In this document: positions 29,443 through 53,850 of the stretch, piece by piece
Layout of the letters: each line of letters opens with the position of its first letter
How positions within the stretch are numbered: position 1 is the first letter of the stretch
From: Tagaea sp. CACIAM 22H2
Lineage (GTDB): Bacteria; Pseudomonadota; Alphaproteobacteria; CACIAM-22H2
Assembly (NCBI GenBank): GCA_014444615.1
Contig: PVXE01000016.1
Location: forward strand, 1-64,000
Reading direction: 5' to 3'
DNA: 64,000 bases
Notes under the pieces: generated by a model
What the model saw: only the letters and a program-made list of their open reading frames with translations
The model's database searches: none
What the model was told of the DNA's origin: nothing
Translations under genes and position numbers: made by a program

Positions 29443-30885
29443 ATGCAAGCCCCCCCGATCGCCTTCGACAACAGCTACGCCAAACTGCCCGAGCGCTTCC
29501 ACGCCAAGCTGCCGCCGACGCCGGTCGCGGCCCCCGCTTTGCTGCGCGTCAATGTCGATCTCGCGCGCGAGCTGGGTATCGATCCGCATTGGCTGGCAAG
29601 CGCGGACGGTGTCGCGACGGTCGCTGGCAACGCGCTGCCGCCGGGGGCGGAGCCGCTGGCGATGGCTTATTCCGGCCATCAATTCGGCCATTGGTCGGGG
29701 CAGCTTGGCGACGGGCGTGCGATCCTGCTGGGCGAGACGATCGGCCGCGACGGCAAGCGCTACGACATCCATCTGAAGGGCTCGGGCCGCACGCCGTTTT
29801 CACGCGGCGGCGACGGGCGCGCGGCGATCGGCCCCGTGTTGCGCGAATTGGTCGTCAGCGAGGCGATGCATCGCCTGGGCGTGCCCACAACGCGCGTCTT
29901 GTCGGCGGTGATGACGGGCGAAGCGGTGCTGCGCCAGGACGGTCCGTTGCCCGGCGCTGTATTGGCGCGTGTGGCGCGCGGCCATGTCCGGGTCGGCACG
30001 TTCGAACACTTCGCATCGCGCAACGATCGCGAAGGGCTGACGACGTTGACCGACTACGCGATCGAACGCTTCGATCCGGAATTGGCGGCATTGGGGCCCG
30101 ATCGCGTGTTGGCGTTGCTCGACGCCGTGATCGCGCGCACGGCGAAGCTGATCGCGCAATGGCAATGTCTCGGTTTCATACACGGCGTGATGAACACCGA
30201 TAACGTGGCGATCTCGGGCGAGACGATCGATTACGGCCCCTGCGCCTTTATGGACGTCTACGATCCCGATGCCGTTTTCAGCTCGATCGATCATGGCGGC
30301 CGCTATCGTTACTCGAACCAGCCGCGCATCGGCCATTGGAACATGGCGCGCTTCGCCCAGTGCTTGCTTGCCATCGTCGACGGCGACGGCAAGGCCGCGG
30401 TCGAGACGGCGCAAACGAAGCTCGACGCGTTTCCCGTTCTATTCGAGCAAGCGTGGCTTGGCGGCATGCGGCGCAAGCTTGGCCTGCTAACCGCGCAAGA
30501 CGGCGACCGGGAATTGATCGAAGCGTTCCTCGCGCTGCTTGCCGAAACGAAATCCGATTTTGCGAATACGTTCCGACTGCTTTGCGACGATCTGACGCTC
30601 GACGGTTTCGAAACGTGGCGCACCGCGTGGCTTGATCGGCGCGCGCGCGAGGATGTGCTGCCGGAAGCGCAGCGCACCGCGATGCTGGGCGCCAATCCGG
30701 CCTTCATTCCGCGCAACCATCGCGTCGAAGCGGCACTCGCGGCGGCGCAAATCGGCAATCTTGCGCCGTTCGACGAATTGATGGACGTGCTGAAGGCGCC
30801 CTACGACGACCGCCCGGAATACGCAGACTACAAAATGCCGCCCGCCGAACACGAAATCGTCCGCGCGACCTTTTGCGGAACGTAA
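29443..30885 (+). CDS. selO: Protein adenylyltransferase SelO (YdiU/UPF0061)
   Basis: A 480-residue SelO pseudokinase that AMPylates proteins. Family segments are visible: LAMAYSGHQFG, LKGSGRTPFSR, HGVMNTDNVAI and YGPCAFMD, the latter two holding the inverted active-site residues. The protein ends FCGT, with Cys478 third from the end where vertebrate SelO carries selenocysteine; this cysteine is tied to redox control. The start follows GGGGG about one spacing upstream. It stands alone between the FAD oxidase and the pseudokinase module on the other strand. Confidence 0.92.
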   Translation: MQAPPIAFDNSYAKLPERFHAKLPPTPVAAPALLRVNVDLARELGIDPHWLASADGVATVAGNALPPGAEPLAMAYSGHQFGHWSGQLGDGRAILLGETIGRDGKRYDIHLKGSGRTPFSRGGDGRAAIGPVLRELVVSEAMHRLGVPTTRVLSAVMTGEAVLRQDGPLPGAVLARVARGHVRVGTFEHFASRNDREGLTTLTDYAIERFDPELAALGPDRVLALLDAVIARTAKLIAQWQCLGFIHGVMNTDNVAISGETIDYGPCAFMDVYDPDAVFSSIDHGGRYRYSNQPRIGHWNMARFAQCLLAIVDGDGKAAVETAQTKLDAFPVLFEQAWLGGMRRKLGLLTAQDGDRELIEAFLALLAETKSDFANTFRLLCDDLTLDGFETWRTAWLDRRAREDVLPEAQRTAMLGANPAFIPRNHRVEAALAAAQIGNLAPFDELMDVLKAPYDDRPEYADYKMPPAEHEIVRATFCGT

Positions 30886-30886
30886 A

Positions 30887-31354
30887 CTAAGCGTCGTCCT
30901 TGGGCAGTGGTCGGTCGAGACGATCGCCCCAGACTTCGCGTAGTTCCTGCGCGCGGACTTCCATTCGATCGAGCGCCTTGCCCTGTTCCCTGGCTTTCGC
31001 GCGTCCGAAGATCCAAGGCAGAGTGATCGCCATGGTCGCGGCGAAGATCATGCCCGCGAATGGCACGATCCAGGAGCGCATCTCGATATGGACGTTGCGG
31101 TCGTGGTCGAGGAATCCCGCGAGCAGCACGGGGGCGGCCAGCGCCGCGCCGATCGTGGCGCAGGATGCCGACAACAATCGCGGCCGCGCCGTCTCGAACG
31201 CGTAGACGATCGCGATGGGCAGCGAGATTCCGGCGACATAAACGAGCAGGATCGGCCGGATCAGCACGATCGCGGCACAGATCGCCAGCATCCCGCCGAT
31301 GACGAGCAGCGGCCCCAACTTGCTGCCGCGTTTCGCGGGCGCTTCGTCGTTCAT
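30887..31354 (-). CDS. Four-helix membrane partner of the pseudokinase, module 1
   Basis: A 155-residue integral membrane protein of no recognised family. About four hydrophobic segments lie within residues 15-115, followed by a charged cytoplasmic-looking tail. Segments such as RPILLVYVAGISLP, VLLAGFLDHDR and ELREVWGDRLDRPLP match KPALLAYIIGVFTP, VVLSGLLDHSR and ALIAEWGETIKDPLT in the protein at 51307, so the two are paralogues. Its ATG overlaps the TGA of the pseudokinase gene (ATGA), implying equal translation and a likely complex. Confidence 0.7.
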   Translation of the reverse strand: MNDEAPAKRGSKLGPLLVIGGMLAICAAIVLIRPILLVYVAGISLPIAIVYAFETARPRLLSASCATIGAALAAPVLLAGFLDHDRNVHIEMRSWIVPFAGMIFAATMAITLPWIFGRAKAREQGKALDRMEVRAQELREVWGDRLDRPLPKDDA

Positions 31355-33366
31355 CGTCCGACCCCGATGGTCATGAATAGCATTCCCAGAAATCCGACCG
31401 AGCTCACCAGGCTCAGCAGGATATAGGCCATCGCCGTGCCGCGTTCCTGGCCCATCAACCGCGCGAGGATCAATAGGCCTTCGCGGTTGGCGAGCGCCAC
31501 GCCGATCGAATCGTATTCGCGCTTGGCTTCGGCGAAGTCGCGCTTGTCCTTGGCGATCGTCTCCTCGTCCATCACGACGTCGACCATGCCGGTGATCGAA
31601 CCGCTGCGCGCATGATGCTCGGCTTCGGCCAGCAAACGCTCGCGCGTTTTGGGGTGGTTAATTTCGTCGATCAGCTTCTCGGCGCTGCGCAAGCAAACCT
31701 GCGCAAGCTTGGGCAGCGCTTCGGCCTGCGCTTCCGATTGCAGCTTATTCGAAACCTTGAGGACTTTCGGTGCGCCCTTGGCGTCGACATCGCCGAGATT
31801 GTACCAAGGGGCGAGCATGTCGTCTGAAATGTCGGCCTTGGCGCCCAGGAAGCCGACCATATGGCGATCGATGCCGGGCTTGTCGGGGTCGGCGCAAGCC
31901 GCTTCGATGGGCTTCACCAGATCGACATGCGACACGGTCCATTGCCCGTCGAGCTTGGGCGACAGGCATGGCGCGTCGGGATTGAGCTTGTAGAGGGCGG
32001 CTTCCAGATTGTTGCCCGTGCGCTCGAAGCTGCGCTCGATCTCCTCGAGCTTTTTGGCCGCCATATCGACCAGGCCGAATTCGGCGGCGCCCTTCATCCA
32101 ATAGGAAATGAGCTTGCCCTTCAGCACTTCGCCGAACTCCGCCCAGCGCGGCGGATCGTTGGCGATCTCGCGCAGAAGGGCGCCGACGCCGGCCGGGTAG
32201 AAGGAGAGGGACTTGAAGCGGATCGGTCCGCCCGGATCGCAGCGCGCGATGGCCTTGGCGAGCGCGATATTGTCGTCCTCGCCCTGACGCCCGGCCGCGA
32301 TCGCGGCTTGGGGATTGTCGGCCTCGGCCAATTCCTTGCCCGCCATCACCGCGGCGCGCTTCGGATTGTTCTCGACCATCCATTTGTCGATCACGCCGCT
32401 GCGCACCATCGGGATGCCTTCGGCCTGATACTTGTGAAGCGCGAAAGCGACTTCCTTGGGGCCGTAGCAGGTCATCGGGCCGACGCGGATCGACATCGCG
32501 CGCTTGCCGAGCGAGCGGACTTGCTTCACCTCCGGCTTGCGGCCGGCGCACCAGTCGGAAAGCGTCTGGATGCTCCAGCGCAGCTTGACGTCGTCCTGCA
32601 TCAAGCCTTCGACCGCATCCTTGATCTCAATCGGCATGGCGCCGGTGTCGACCATGGTCGAGATCGAGCCGAATTCCAGACGGCGGCGCGTGAAGTCGGC
32701 CGGGTCCATGCCTTCGCCGGGCAGGCGCCCGGCGGCAAGGCAGTAGAACGTGACGCCCAGCGCAAACATGTCGTCGGCGGGGGCGATCGGCCCCTTCGAG
32801 ATCGGATTGGCGAGCGCGCGCTCGATCGGTTCGAAAATCGCGGGCTGGTCGTAGCCGGGCGGGCACAACGTGCATGGCCCCAAGGTGAGCAAGGAATACC
32901 GGCTGTCTTGGCCGAATAGATTGTCGGGGCGGATCGAGCCGTGGCCCTCATGCGAGTCCGACAGGCTTTGCAGCGCCGCGATCGCCGGGCGCAGGAAATT
33001 CTTGATCAGCGTCTGGACCGGGTAGTGACCCCACAACGCGCGCGGCGGCGGGCCCATCAACGGCCGTTCGTAGACGAAGGCGTAGCGGTCGCGCATGCCC
33101 TTGATGCGCAGCGGCCCGTGGTGGAACAGGCGCAGCATGCCCGCGCGCTCGATCGTCCGCACGCGACGCGCCGCATCGACGCGCGGACCCGGCAGATCGT
33201 TGCAGACATAAGCGATCAGCGGGACGTCGGCGAATTCGTTGTGCTGGGCGACATAGGCCGACGCATGGGCGCGCGAAAACATCGCCAAGGGTTGCCCCAT
33301 GTCGATGATGTGTTCGGGCCCGAAGGCGATCCGCGTTTCGGTATCTGCGTTGGCGGCGTTGGCCAA
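31351..33366 (-). CDS. Tail-anchored protein-kinase-like pseudokinase, module 1
   Basis: A 671-residue protein with a kinase-like N-terminal region and a C-terminal membrane anchor (last about 25 residues). The catalytic loop is HGSIRPDN (142-149), with the HRD aspartate replaced by Ser; the DFG position reads TLGPC (161-165); the VAIK lysine region reads AYVC (52-55). A late-lobe segment ADDMFALGVTFYCLAAG is kinase-like. Residues 300-640 form a helical domain with DAPCLSP. Catalysis by the normal mechanism is unlikely. The start is a TTG at 33366 after GGGGAC; no better codon is in frame. A paralogue with the same neighbours lies at 51756. Confidence 0.72.
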   Translation of the reverse strand: MANAANADTETRIAFGPEHIIDMGQPLAMFSRAHASAYVAQHNEFADVPLIAYVCNDLPGPRVDAARRVRTIERAGMLRLFHHGPLRIKGMRDRYAFVYERPLMGPPPRALWGHYPVQTLIKNFLRPAIAALQSLSDSHEGHGSIRPDNLFGQDSRYSLLTLGPCTLCPPGYDQPAIFEPIERALANPISKGPIAPADDMFALGVTFYCLAAGRLPGEGMDPADFTRRRLEFGSISTMVDTGAMPIEIKDAVEGLMQDDVKLRWSIQTLSDWCAGRKPEVKQVRSLGKRAMSIRVGPMTCYGPKEVAFALHKYQAEGIPMVRSGVIDKWMVENNPKRAAVMAGKELAEADNPQAAIAAGRQGEDDNIALAKAIARCDPGGPIRFKSLSFYPAGVGALLREIANDPPRWAEFGEVLKGKLISYWMKGAAEFGLVDMAAKKLEEIERSFERTGNNLEAALYKLNPDAPCLSPKLDGQWTVSHVDLVKPIEAACADPDKPGIDRHMVGFLGAKADISDDMLAPWYNLGDVDAKGAPKVLKVSNKLQSEAQAEALPKLAQVCLRSAEKLIDEINHPKTRERLLAEAEHHARSGSITGMVDVVMDEETIAKDKRDFAEAKREYDSIGVALANREGLLILARLMGQERGTAMAYILLSLVSSVGFLGMLFMTIGVGR

Positions 33367-50227: not shown

Positions 50228-51310
50228 CTAGCGCCACAAGCCTCGGCGCATCAGCCAATCCTGAATGCGCTCGGCGACCTGGTCCGAGTTTCTATCCATC
50301 ATCGGCATATGGCCGTTGCCCGCGATGCCGCTCCGCGGCAAGTCCAGCACGTCGACCTGCGCGCCCGCGGCGCGCAAGACCTCAAAATAGCGCAGACCGT
50401 TGCCCTTGATCGCGGGCCAGCGTGTATCCTGTTCGATGTAATCGCCGTAGATCGCGAGGACGGGCACACCCTTGATCTCGGCGGCGCGGCCGGGATCGCC
50501 GAAACCAGTGGGTTCGATCGCCACGATGGCGCGCACCTTGTCCGGCCGCGCTTCGGCCGCACGGAAGGCGAATTGCCCGGCCTGGCTATGCGCCACCAGC
50601 ACGCAAGGGCAGCTGCGATCCACCAATGCGATATAGGCATCCGTGATCGCATCGTCGGTCGAGGTCCAGCGCGGCACGATCTGACGCACGAGCTGGTCGT
50701 AGGAGTCGACCGGGAATTGGCTGCCTTCGAGCGTCTCGCGTTTGGCGAAGGAGCCGGGGCCGTCGCCGATGCGGAAACGTTCGAAAGCTTCGGGCTGCGC
50801 CAGGAAGACCGGCTCGCCACGGAAGATGTCGGGAAATTGCGCCCAGCCCGCGCGGCCGCGCTCGACCGCGTCGGCGTTGTGCACGGTCCAGCCGCGCCGC
50901 AGGAAGAAATTGAGCCAGCCGTCGCGCCCATCGGGCGTGGTTTCGTATTGCACGCCCGTCATGCCGCCGCCATGCATCAGCACCAGCGGGGCGGCACCGC
51001 GCTTCCAGCGCGGTTCGAACCATTGGGCATACATGTGTTCGACCAGGAACGTGCCGTTGGGGTCGATGCGCGCGATCGGGCCGCCGGGGGTGAACTGCAC
51101 GTCGCGCACCGGCTTGCCCACGATCGTCACCGCGCGGCCGCCGACGTGATAGGACCCCATATTCGACAGCACGATGTCGCCCTTGGGCGACGGCGCGACC
51201 GTTCCGTCCGCCGCGACGGTCGTTCCGCCGCCGCCGCCGCAAGCGGCAAGGGGCAACAAGGCGGCAAGCGCGAACAGAGCGTGACGCAAACGCGGCATTT
51301 TGTTCCTCAT
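50228..51310 (-). CDS. Lipoprotein alpha/beta hydrolase (esterase-like), module 2
   Basis: A 360-residue lipoprotein. The lipobox is LAAC (signal ALFALAALLPLAAC), followed by a Gly-rich linker, so it is anchored in an outer or inner membrane. The hydrolase core shows an oxyanion segment VLMHGGGMTG, the nucleophile elbow VAHSQAGQF and a late His in GNGHMPMMD. It resembles the esterase/PHB-depolymerase-like fold. Its start overlaps the membrane-protein gene of the pseudokinase module (ATGA), suggesting joint action; module 1 lacks this gene. ATG at 51298 is an alternative start. Confidence 0.72.
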   Translation of the reverse strand: MRNKMPRLRHALFALAALLPLAACGGGGGTTVAADGTVAPSPKGDIVLSNMGSYHVGGRAVTIVGKPVRDVQFTPGGPIARIDPNGTFLVEHMYAQWFEPRWKRGAAPLVLMHGGGMTGVQYETTPDGRDGWLNFFLRRGWTVHNADAVERGRAGWAQFPDIFRGEPVFLAQPEAFERFRIGDGPGSFAKRETLEGSQFPVDSYDQLVRQIVPRWTSTDDAITDAYIALVDRSCPCVLVAHSQAGQFAFRAAEARPDKVRAIVAIEPTGFGDPGRAAEIKGVPVLAIYGDYIEQDTRWPAIKGNGLRYFEVLRAAGAQVDVLDLPRSGIAGNGHMPMMDRNSDQVAERIQDWLMRRGLWR

Positions 51311-51759
51311 CCCGGCGGTGTCAGCGGATCCTTGATCGTCTCGCCCCATTCGGCGATCAGCGCCGTTTGGCGTTGCTCGAGGATCGCGAACTGTTCCTTC
51401 TGTTCGCGCGTCGTCATCATTTCGCCGATCGCGGGCACGATCACCGCGACGGCCGTTCCGGCCATGCCGGCGGCCACGGGCACGCCCCAGGCCCAAATGT
51501 CGCCCATGATGAAGCGCGAATGGTCGAGCAGCCCCGACAGCACCACCGGCCCCGCGGCGGCCAGCGTCATCGCCGCCGAGCCGATCCACGCGAAGCGCCG
51601 TTTGCTGCCTTCCATGATGTAGACGGCGGCGCAGGGTGTGAACACGCCGATGATGTAGGCGAGCAGAGCGGGTTTCAGGATCAGCACAGCGACGGCGAGC
51701 ACCGTCGCGCCGAGAATGGCGAGGGCGATCAGAATTCCGCGGAAGCCGAGCGATCTCAT
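51307..51759 (-). CDS. Four-helix membrane partner of the pseudokinase, module 2
   Basis: A 150-residue membrane protein with about four hydrophobic segments (within residues 5-110) and a charged C-terminal tail (EQKEQFAILEQRQTALIAEW). It matches the module 1 protein at 30887 in spacing, LDH-containing loop and tail. It overlaps the pseudokinase stop (ATGA) and the lipoprotein start (ATGA). No family recognised. It probably complexes with the pseudokinase through its cytoplasmic tail. Confidence 0.7.
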   Translation of the reverse strand: MRSLGFRGILIALAILGATVLAVAVLILKPALLAYIIGVFTPCAAVYIMEGSKRRFAWIGSAAMTLAAAGPVVLSGLLDHSRFIMGDIWAWGVPVAAGMAGTAVAVIVPAIGEMMTTREQKEQFAILEQRQTALIAEWGETIKDPLTPPG

Positions 51760-53762
51760 CGCACCATCACCCAGAAATAGAGCTGCGTGAGCAGCGTGCC
51801 GATAGCCAGCGCCGACAACACCGCAAGGGCGATTTCCTGGCCTTTGTCGCGGCCGATGCGGCGCGTCGCCTCGACGATCGCTTCGCGATGGTCGAGGACG
51901 CGCTGATTGGTGTCGAACTCGTTCTTCACGGCCGTGAACTCGGCCTGATCCTGGCCGAACACATCGGGATCGGTCGCGAGATCGACCAGGCCCGGAATGT
52001 CGCCCGCATTCGCCAGCGCGTCCGATTCCGCGAGCTTGCGCTCGCGCAATTCCGGCTTCTTCAGCCGGTTGATCATCGTCTTCGCCGCGTCGTGGCAAAG
52101 CCGGGTGAGGTTCGGCAGGCTTTTGCCCTTGGCGTCGACGGCGAAACGCATCGACGCCTTCAGCACGGCCGCCGCGCGGCGCTGATCCTTGCCGTCGAAA
52201 TTCTTCAACGAGCCGATGTCGGCGGCCGAAATACCGCTGCGCGCGCCCAAAAACGCGACGACATGGCCGTCGAAATCCAGCTTGCCTTGGCCGACCGAGG
52301 CTTCGATGAAATCGAGAAGATCGCCGGGCTGATCCACCCATTTGCCTTGCACGGCGGGCGAGAGGCACGGGGCGTCGGAATTGAGCCGGTAGAGAGCCGC
52401 TTCGAGCTTATCGACCTTGTTGGAGATTCGGTCCTCGACCTCCAGCAGCTTGCGCGCTTCCTCGTCCAGCAGCCCGAATTGATTCGCGGCCTTCGACCAG
52501 ACATGCGCAAGGCGCCAGGAGAAAAACTCCTCCAGCTGCGCGCGCTTGCCGGGATCGAGCATCGCGGCATGCGCGACAGCGCCCGCACCGCCGGGGTGGA
52601 AGGCGAGATCGCGATAACGCAAGGGGCCTTGCGGATCGAGACGCACGACCATGCGCGCGAGCGCCACTTCCGGCGGCGGCGCGTTGACCTGGGTCTTATC
52701 CTCGCCCGCCAGTGCGGCAACGCGCTGCACGTCGTTGTCGCGGATCCAATTCGTGACGTCGTCGCCGGTGACCGCCGCTTGCCCTTCTTTCTGGAAGCGG
52801 TGCAGGGCGAAGGCAAGTTCCGCCGGTTCGAGGGCGCTGATCGACCCGATCTTCAGCGGTGAGCCGCGGCGTGCGACCTGCTTCTTGGTCGGCAAGGTCG
52901 GCCGCCGTCCGGCGATCCAATCGAGCAGCGTGGCGAGCGTCCAGCGCGACTTGAGATCGTCGTCGATCAGCGCCGTGATCGGATCGAAAAGCTCGGACGG
53001 AATCTGCGACGTGTCGATCAACGTGCCGATGGAGCCGTAGGCGATGCGCCGCGCCATCACGGCGTCCGCGTTCTGACCTTCGCCGGGATATTTGCCCGTG
53101 GCGAAGCAATAAAGCGTCATGCCGAGCGCGAACATGTCGTCGAGGATACCGCCGGGGCCCTTGCCGTCGGGGCTGGCGAGGGCGCGTTCGATCGGCTCGA
53201 ACACCGCAGGCTGGTCGTAGCCGACGGGGCCGAGCACGCATGGGCCGAGGGTCAGCAGCTGGCCGCGCGTATCCTGCATGAATACGTTATCGGGGCGGAT
53301 CGAGCCGTGGATCTCGTCGCGATCCGACATGTCCTTGAGGACGAGGGCGGCGGGTTTCAAGAAATTCTGGACGAGGGTGCGCGGCGCCCAACCCGACCAC
53401 ATGCGCCGCGGCGGGGGTGGGCCGACGGGCTTTTCCATCACGACGGCGTAGGCGTCACTCGCGCCCGGCCGTTGGAGAACGCCGGTTTCGAGAATGGCGA
53501 GCATGCCCGAGCGCGAAATGCCGCGTAAGCGCTGCGCCGAGCGGATGCGGACGGAACGGTCGGGCTCGCAGACGAAGGCGACGTGCTGCGTATCGGCGAA
53601 GCGCTTGTCGACGGCAGCGTAAGCTTTGGCGCCCGGCCGATCGAACGCGGGCAAGGGCGTTTCGAGATCGACCAGAACATGCTCGCCCAACGGCAAACCG
53701 CCGCCGCCGGCCCCGTCGGGCGCGCGCAGGAAGGTCGGGCGTTGCACGAGAAAGTTCACCAC
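51756..53762 (-). CDS. Tail-anchored protein-kinase-like pseudokinase, module 2
   Basis: A 668-residue paralogue of the 31351 product. The catalytic loop is HGSIRPDN (about 152-159), again with Ser for the HRD Asp; DFG is LGPC; the VAIK lysine position is Cys (AFVC). Lobe segment LDDMFALGMTLYCFATG and the helical domain with DAPCLSP are conserved with module 1, as is a C-terminal anchor. Start is a GTG at 53762 or 53759; the open frame goes back to a TTG at 53828 without support. Identity between modules is highest in the kinase C-lobe, consistent with a shared scaffold role. Confidence 0.72.
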   Translation of the reverse strand: MVNFLVQRPTFLRAPDGAGGGGLPLGEHVLVDLETPLPAFDRPGAKAYAAVDKRFADTQHVAFVCEPDRSVRIRSAQRLRGISRSGMLAILETGVLQRPGASDAYAVVMEKPVGPPPPRRMWSGWAPRTLVQNFLKPAALVLKDMSDRDEIHGSIRPDNVFMQDTRGQLLTLGPCVLGPVGYDQPAVFEPIERALASPDGKGPGGILDDMFALGMTLYCFATGKYPGEGQNADAVMARRIAYGSIGTLIDTSQIPSELFDPITALIDDDLKSRWTLATLLDWIAGRRPTLPTKKQVARRGSPLKIGSISALEPAELAFALHRFQKEGQAAVTGDDVTNWIRDNDVQRVAALAGEDKTQVNAPPPEVALARMVVRLDPQGPLRYRDLAFHPGGAGAVAHAAMLDPGKRAQLEEFFSWRLAHVWSKAANQFGLLDEEARKLLEVEDRISNKVDKLEAALYRLNSDAPCLSPAVQGKWVDQPGDLLDFIEASVGQGKLDFDGHVVAFLGARSGISAADIGSLKNFDGKDQRRAAAVLKASMRFAVDAKGKSLPNLTRLCHDAAKTMINRLKKPELRERKLAESDALANAGDIPGLVDLATDPDVFGQDQAEFTAVKNEFDTNQRVLDHREAIVEATRRIGRDKGQEIALAVLSALAIGTLLTQLYFWVMVR

Positions 53763-53850
53763 GGTGTGCCGGAAAGCTCGCGATCGTTTCGACGTTTCGA
53801 GAGTGCGCGAAAGGCGCGGCGGCCGCAACTTTCGCGGTTGCCGTCAACGA

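Follow-up and report, generated by a model that had tools for sequence, protein, structure and literature searches.

Can a kinase-like protein that lacks its catalytic residues form a conserved unit with the small membrane protein whose gene it overlaps, and what would the two do together? The question is raised by a locus in the window, the stretch of 64,000 nucleotides analysed here (Tagaea sp. CACIAM 22H2, contig PVXE01000016.1, positions 1 to 64,000), for which a first-pass annotation made from the sequence alone had proposed a signalling scaffold or a regulated channel.

The gene pair and its predicted architecture

The coordinates of the 671-residue kinase-like gene and of the partner gene that overlaps it by ATGA were given correctly by the first-pass annotation (Table 1). 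It had also reported that the HRD Asp is replaced by Ser, that LGPC stands at the DFG region, that the VAIK Lys has become Cys and that the protein ends in a membrane anchor. The first two are read directly in the sequence, with Pro164 falling on the DFG Asp in the alignment to three intact relatives (below). The Lys is indeed lost, there being none in the β3 stretch of copy 1, but the proposed substitute, Cys55, did not hold up, as Tyr53 takes the place of the Lys in the same alignment; the substitute varies with the alignment used. Both copies in the window lack the β3 Lys, the HRD Asp and the DFG Asp. The anchor is predicted by two approaches that agree with the annotation, and its limits were drawn by eye. 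In a Pfam scan up to E 1, Pkinase was the only family that matched the two pseudokinase copies, in both cases below threshold (E 0.06 and 0.053), and a profile built from 112 pseudokinase sequences matched solved kinases at E 3e-11. Both copies can thus be placed in the general class of bacterial transmembrane pseudokinases, on residues read from the sequence and on a predicted fold and anchor. Membership of the LanL lanthionine synthetases was rejected, the NCBIfam scores being 26.5 and 25.9 bits against a curated cut-off of 650.

The partner had been described as a four-helix membrane protein of no known family, which agrees with the AlphaFold2 model of copy 1 (pLDDT 83.5; helices 13-32, 34-53, 60-82 and 92-147) and with its lack of any Pfam match. 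The predicted last helix is long and probably reaches into the cytosol. When 72 partner sequences were compared with Pfam, 20 families appeared at E 0.1 or better, each in at most five members and with a best E of 0.0014.

Table 1. Positions of the two gene pairs and of the parts of pseudokinase copy 1 in the window.
Feature	Position	Strand	Basis or remark
Four-helix membrane partner, copy 1 (155 aa)	30887..31354	-	AlphaFold2; no Pfam match
Pseudokinase gene, copy 1 (671 aa)	31351..33366	-	TTG start
Kinase-fold domain, residues 12-285	32512..33333	-	predicted
HGSIRPDN catalytic-loop frame, residues 142-149, Ser144 for HRD Asp	32920..32943	-	sequence
LGPC for the DFG region, Pro164 at the Asp position	32872..32883	-	alignment to intact cousins
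Alpha-helical repeat domain, residues 290-600, hairpins 293-300 and 382-389	31567..32499	-	predicted; secondary structure of the model
Long juxtamembrane helix, residues 601-644	31435..31566	-	predicted; model helix H601-670
C-terminal membrane anchor, residues 645-668	31363..31434	-	predicted; hydrophobicity scan and model helix
ATGA stop/start overlap of pseudokinase and partner, copy 1	31351..31354	-	sequence
Pseudokinase gene, copy 2 (690-aa ORF)	51756..53828	-	sequence; dN/dS 0.067
Four-helix membrane partner, copy 2 (150 aa, from internal ATG)	51307..51759	-	sequence; dN/dS 0.085

The second pair, noted 20 kb away, is real: its genes also overlap by ATGA (51756-51759), and its proteins share 40% (pseudokinase, over 653 columns) and 32% (partner) identity with those of copy 1. 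The count of two copies was too low, as the source genome (4.39 Mb, 92% complete) has four pseudokinase copies, the other two lying on contigs C18 and C3. Homologues suggest that the true start of pseudokinase copy 2 lies ~20 codons later than that of the open frame, and the own-genome match of the partner profile at C16:51322-51723 corresponds to partner copy 2. This partner gene sits inside a 353-aa open frame (51307-52368, minus strand), and gene calling by the longest ORF would overlook it. The relatives that carry a genus name are from Tagaea sp. (73%, 39% and 40%) and, once, Sphingomonas daechungensis (51%).

Around copy 1, a convergent SelO gene (29443-30885, plus strand, 370 bits) ends one base from the partner gene, and a pentapeptide-repeat gene and a hybrid histidine-kinase gene lie upstream in divergent orientation; copy 2 sits after a gene of the isocitrate/isopropylmalate dehydrogenase family. 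SelO is a family of protein AMPylators that themselves have a kinase fold, and we consider its position beside copy 1 a coincidence. The pseudokinase copies themselves are not SelO proteins, since they did not match the SelO profile up to E 1, as opposed to the 370 bits of the neighbour.

Co-occurrence, selection and neighbourhood

Among 385 alphaproteobacterial genomes, the pseudokinase profile (E 1e-20 or better) was matched in 131 and the partner profile (1e-8 or better) in 133, including all 131 with the pseudokinase. In other words, 131 genomes have both, 252 have neither and two, which are 84% and 75% complete, have the partner only. The counts leave aside 13 of 144 genomes with a pseudokinase match weaker than 1e-20 and one of 134 with a partner match weaker than 1e-8, and absences are less certain than presences because at most three pseudokinase and nine partner candidates were scored per genome. 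The Fisher p of 1e-102 for the co-occurrence is too strong, as the genomes share kinship.

In the survey of gene neighbourhoods, 187 of 199 pseudokinase copies were followed immediately by a partner gene (181 of 193 distinct ones; copies below 560 aa, the three intact relatives and copies with less than 600 bases of sequence behind them were excluded), a figure that is partly circular because the partner profiles were made from downstream ORFs with at least two predicted helices. The median offset between the two genes is 9 bases (170 pairs). In a split test, a profile from separate training loci showed an adjacent partner at 67 of 75 copies and matched 69 of 3742 ORFs; some test species occur in the training set too, and removal of test proteins at least 80% or at least 50% identical to a training protein left 55 of 63 and 30 of 36, respectively. 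All 189 ORFs that match the partner profile adjoin a pseudokinase, which says little about lone partners since each locus had been chosen for its pseudokinase. Both the co-occurrence and the adjacency support the earlier proposal that the pair is a unit.

In the remaining 12 of 199 copies, the partner is not adjacent as judged by the profile. By the same measure, an adjacent partner is lacking at loci of Magnetospirillum, Phaeospirillum, a Rhodospirillaceae bin and Roseospira (L235, L237, L241, L247, L251 and L264). Four loci (L276, L277, L279 and L280) show a partner that is retained away from the pseudokinase, and a fifth (L278) lies at a contig end and is therefore uninformative on this point. 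In the genome of L276 (G324), the pseudokinase (L171) is followed by a 176-aa two-helix ORF that the partner profile does not match. Extra partner copies whose retrieved surroundings contain no pseudokinase were found in two genomes that also carry a complete pair (L273, L274 and L275 in G036; L282 and L283 in G168), and they speak against a strictly one-to-one pairing.

A scan of species genomes kept 80 of 409 relatives, including Azospirillum, Skermanella, Niveispirillum, Magnetospirillum, Nisaea, Telmatospirillum and SAR116; a further two MAGs, titled as other phyla (Stygiobacter and Mesoflavibacter), are presumably misplaced bins. The pseudokinase is kept even in a genome of 1.4 Mb that is estimated to be 100% complete (G069). 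In a sample of the phylum (299 genomes, class members included), the strongest matches outside the class, among the matches listed, were three intact Ser/Thr kinases (L184:5988-8627, L185:3502-5487 and L186:1024-3333), and the weaker ones listed mostly covered the kinase domain only, although some extend further, for example G535 (to 362). The three share with the pseudokinase the kinase domain and the same repeat region (E ~1e-32, reaching profile position 454-473), but differ from it in their intact HRDIKPGN and DFG motifs. No partner was found beside L184 or L186, and L185 is cut by the contig end. The L184 kinase gene stands beside two FGE-sulfatase-domain genes.

Both genes are under purifying selection. 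Against three orthologues, dN/dS was 0.061, 0.067 and 0.202 for pseudokinase copy 1 and 0.154, 0.178 and 0.236 for its partner (one orthologue being cut by a contig end), and the values for copy 2 are likewise low (Table 1). With dN/dS of 0.06-0.24 and co-occurrence in 131 of 131 genomes, the pair is not a product of chance. The distances of pseudokinase and partner also co-vary beyond the PurA signal (r 0.67 versus 0.52 and 0.41; partial r 0.59, 0 of 1000 permutations; 84 pairs thinned from 110 loci). Between the two proteins, mutual information (161 pairs, Neff 123) peaked at z 9.65, barely higher than in shuffled pairings (mean 7.76, the highest of 20 at 9.57). The juxtamembrane helix is not overrepresented, its 44 of 657 columns supplying 6 of the top 100 pairs, and the residue pairs 624-127, 628-127 and 632-123, which would fit two helices that meet near the membrane, are not distinct from the shuffles.

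The pair is frequently located behind purA. At 124 loci, the recurrent genes on the strand of the pair are purA (77), hisZ (56), serA (35) and serC (29), and those on the opposite strand are rpoH (59) and rluD (55); the names of the neighbour clusters (these six and ltaE) are our reading of their sequences by eye, and the record of Azospirillum thermophilum lists an ATP phosphoribosyltransferase regulatory subunit, adenylosuccinate synthase and RpoH around its pair. Among the 111 copies with room, purA is directly upstream (within 560 bases) in 65, hisZ in 49 and a facing rpoH in 53, purA and rpoH occurring together in 39 and either one in 79. Named genomes have purA directly upstream at 54 of 75 loci, two of Azospirillum brasilense included, and the spread of the purA site suggests that it is ancestral. 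The pair of Azospirillum ramasamyi is not at purA but comes after phaC and a histidine-kinase gene; in the source genome, the C18 copy is linked to purA, and the C3 copy and the two window copies are not. Two loci at the purA site (L114 and L117) carry tandem pseudokinase-partner-pseudokinase-partner arrays. In a quick tree of 52 sequences with SH-aLRT support only, the 14 included copies from the bacterial family of the window organism all form one clade (support 100), within which the two window copies and their orthologues are sisters (support 100), implying that the two arose by duplication within the genus or close to it.

Catalytic positions across the family

The window copies do not qualify as active Hanks-type Ser/Thr kinases, since the fold is there but the three catalytic residues are not. 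WNK kinases, which are active, retain the HRD and DFG Asp, unlike the window pseudokinase. For the wider family, 125 of 128 kinase-like ORFs were taken as full-length members. The HRD Asp is present in one of the 125 and a Lys at residues 51-55 in two, and the DFG Phe and Gly are exchanged across the family, mostly for C and for V, L or F, respectively. Other positions are well kept, namely the catalytic-loop Asn149 (122), R62 (118), Arg146 at HRD+2 (105), His at 142 (114) and Arg or Gly at 143 (119), so that the family motifs read H[RG]xIRPxN and G[EDPQ]C. At column 164, the counterpart of the DFG Asp in the intact relatives, 56 members have E, 44 D, 17 P and 8 Q. Most relatives (100 of 125) are therefore acidic at this metal site, unlike the window copies, which lack all three catalytic residues. 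The columns that are invariant among 112 sequences (D199, R263, W329, P381, Y459, D500 and D607) do not include the three catalytic positions. The Asn and the acidic residue that most relatives retain may still allow nucleotide binding there, and their retention would be surprising if the wider family were nothing but scaffolds.

Candidate roles and known pseudokinases

The reading that we prefer, and to which we give about even chances, is that the two genes form a conserved unit in which the catalysis-deficient pseudokinase is a membrane-anchored platform that likely binds the four-helix partner, acting as a scaffold and not as an enzyme. The kinase fold and the helical repeats would form a cytosolic platform, predicted to be anchored in the inner membrane, that may hold a client there, and binding to the partner might involve the long cytosolic helices near the membrane (residues 601-644 of the pseudokinase and ~112-147 of the partner) together with the anchors. 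In its favor are the co-occurrence and adjacency, the partners retained at a distance, the joint divergence, the lost catalytic residues, the invariant columns elsewhere and the lack of another Pkinase-type protein in most genomes searched (below); against it stand the weak covariation, the lone partner copies, the 12 copies with no adjacent partner, the retained Asn149 and acidic column 164, and the eight genomes that do have another Pkinase-type protein. The scaffold half of the original proposal is thus part of the preferred reading, and its channel half is kept as a rival.

A known parallel is EssB/YukC, which has a cytosolic kinase fold with three degraded catalytic motifs, is bound to the membrane and is called a scaffold in the texts consulted (PMC12599244, PMC9600267). 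A membrane scaffold of this kind would be the most economical reading. The likeness of the window pseudokinase, a degraded kinase domain with a transmembrane part, is one of working principle and not of family; the pseudokinase here differs by its helical-repeat domain and its dedicated four-helix partner.

Alternatively, the wider family may consist of nucleotide sensors or non-canonical enzymes, like SelO and SidJ, with only the bacterial family of the window organism having become a pure scaffold by loss of the acidic residue. We regard this as possible, though doubtful. It is favored by the retention of Asn149, R62, Arg146 and the acidic column 164 in the wider family, and by P (10) or Q (1) at that column in the 11 aligned sequences of the organism's own bacterial family. 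SelO, according to a table in PMC12599244, likewise lacks the HRD Asp (HGVMNTDN) and keeps the catalytic-loop Asn, but it also has the β3 Lys (WHLK), which is absent here, and the replaced DFG Phe and Gly and the location of the invariant columns speak against this alternative as well. A related and similarly tentative idea is an ancient alphaproteobacterial machine, whose purA-linked form would bind nucleotide or metal through Asn149, Arg146 and the acidic residue at the DFG site and signal to the partner, the duplicates in the window being pure scaffolds; the pseudokinase would then be the only Hanks-type kinase relative in most of the genomes tested.

It seems unlikely to us that the pair forms or regulates a transport or channel complex in which the pseudokinase would gate the partner, its membrane part. 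The four predicted helices, the last of them long and probably extending into the cytosol, and the existence of lone partner copies would suit such a role, but the partner matched no transporter or channel family or fold, only generic bundles and scattered weak ones, and those of the most frequent neighbour clusters that could be named include no transporter.

In eukaryotes, the regulation of active kinases is a common role of pseudokinases. We consider it improbable that the pseudokinase is an allosteric regulator of active Ser/Thr kinases, even though TYK2 JH2 is among its structural matches. Pkinase-type proteins were searched in 37 pair-bearing genomes (the source genome and 36 hand-picked genomes of 0.9 to 2.4 Mb, some of them incomplete), of which 19 had no match at 1e-5 and 10 had matches only to UbiB (Pfam ABC1) or to members of the pseudokinase family. 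UbiB aside, 29 of the 37, including the source genome, thus have no other Pkinase-type protein, implying that, within the reach of the search, there is no live Hanks-type kinase to regulate in them. The other eight do have one: it is strong in G024, G211 and G227, consists of odd frames between Pkinase and APH in G043, G091 and G174, and is weaker in G069 and G193 (L290:411-1865, 484 aa; L291:1135-2601, 488 aa), where the proteins keep the catalytic-loop Asp, have DCDG at the DFG site and carry hydrophobic stretches close to the end.

Least probable is a component of a type VII secretion system, for which the outline shared with EssB/YukC (PMC12599244) would speak, since the EssB/YukC profile was unmatched by both copies in the Pfam scan up to E 1 and the frequent neighbours, as far as they could be named by eye, are biosynthetic genes and rpoH, not secretion genes.

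Other bacterial pseudokinases described in the text of PMC12599244 offer partial likenesses. In mycobacterial ActPs3/MviN, a pseudokinase domain within the membrane protein MviN recruits another protein after phosphorylation by PknB; it resembles the present case as a membrane protein with a pseudokinase domain and differs in that the domain is part of MviN, a family absent from the Pfam matches of the pseudokinase copies up to E 1. ActPs1, ActPs2, GLW, CP1, DYD and DLHK share a Hanks-type fold with lost catalytic residues. According to the same text, Actinobacteria are the main hosts of ActPs1 and ActPs2, and a C-terminal membrane region occurs in ActPs2 and GLW. GLW is named for the motif that replaces HRD, CP1 has no membrane region, and DLHK keeps the HRD Asp and has no membrane region either. 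The present family is not GLW, given its His142 and Arg or Gly143, nor DLHK, given the near-complete loss of the HRD Asp and the predicted C-terminal anchor. Judged by that text, none of the seven families it describes (of 42 classified) has the motifs found here; its main text does not contain the word alphaproteobacteria, and among the titles found on pseudokinases of alphaproteobacteria, Azospirillum and Magnetospirillum, none concerned this pseudokinase family.

Transmembrane pseudokinases are already known in bacteria, and, compared with those described in the text consulted, an obligate partner and these motifs set this family apart. The idea of a pseudokinase that regulates a live relative is largely removed for the 29 hosts without one, and the purA-linked pair in Azospirillum brasilense (L196 and L204) makes the role of the family testable.
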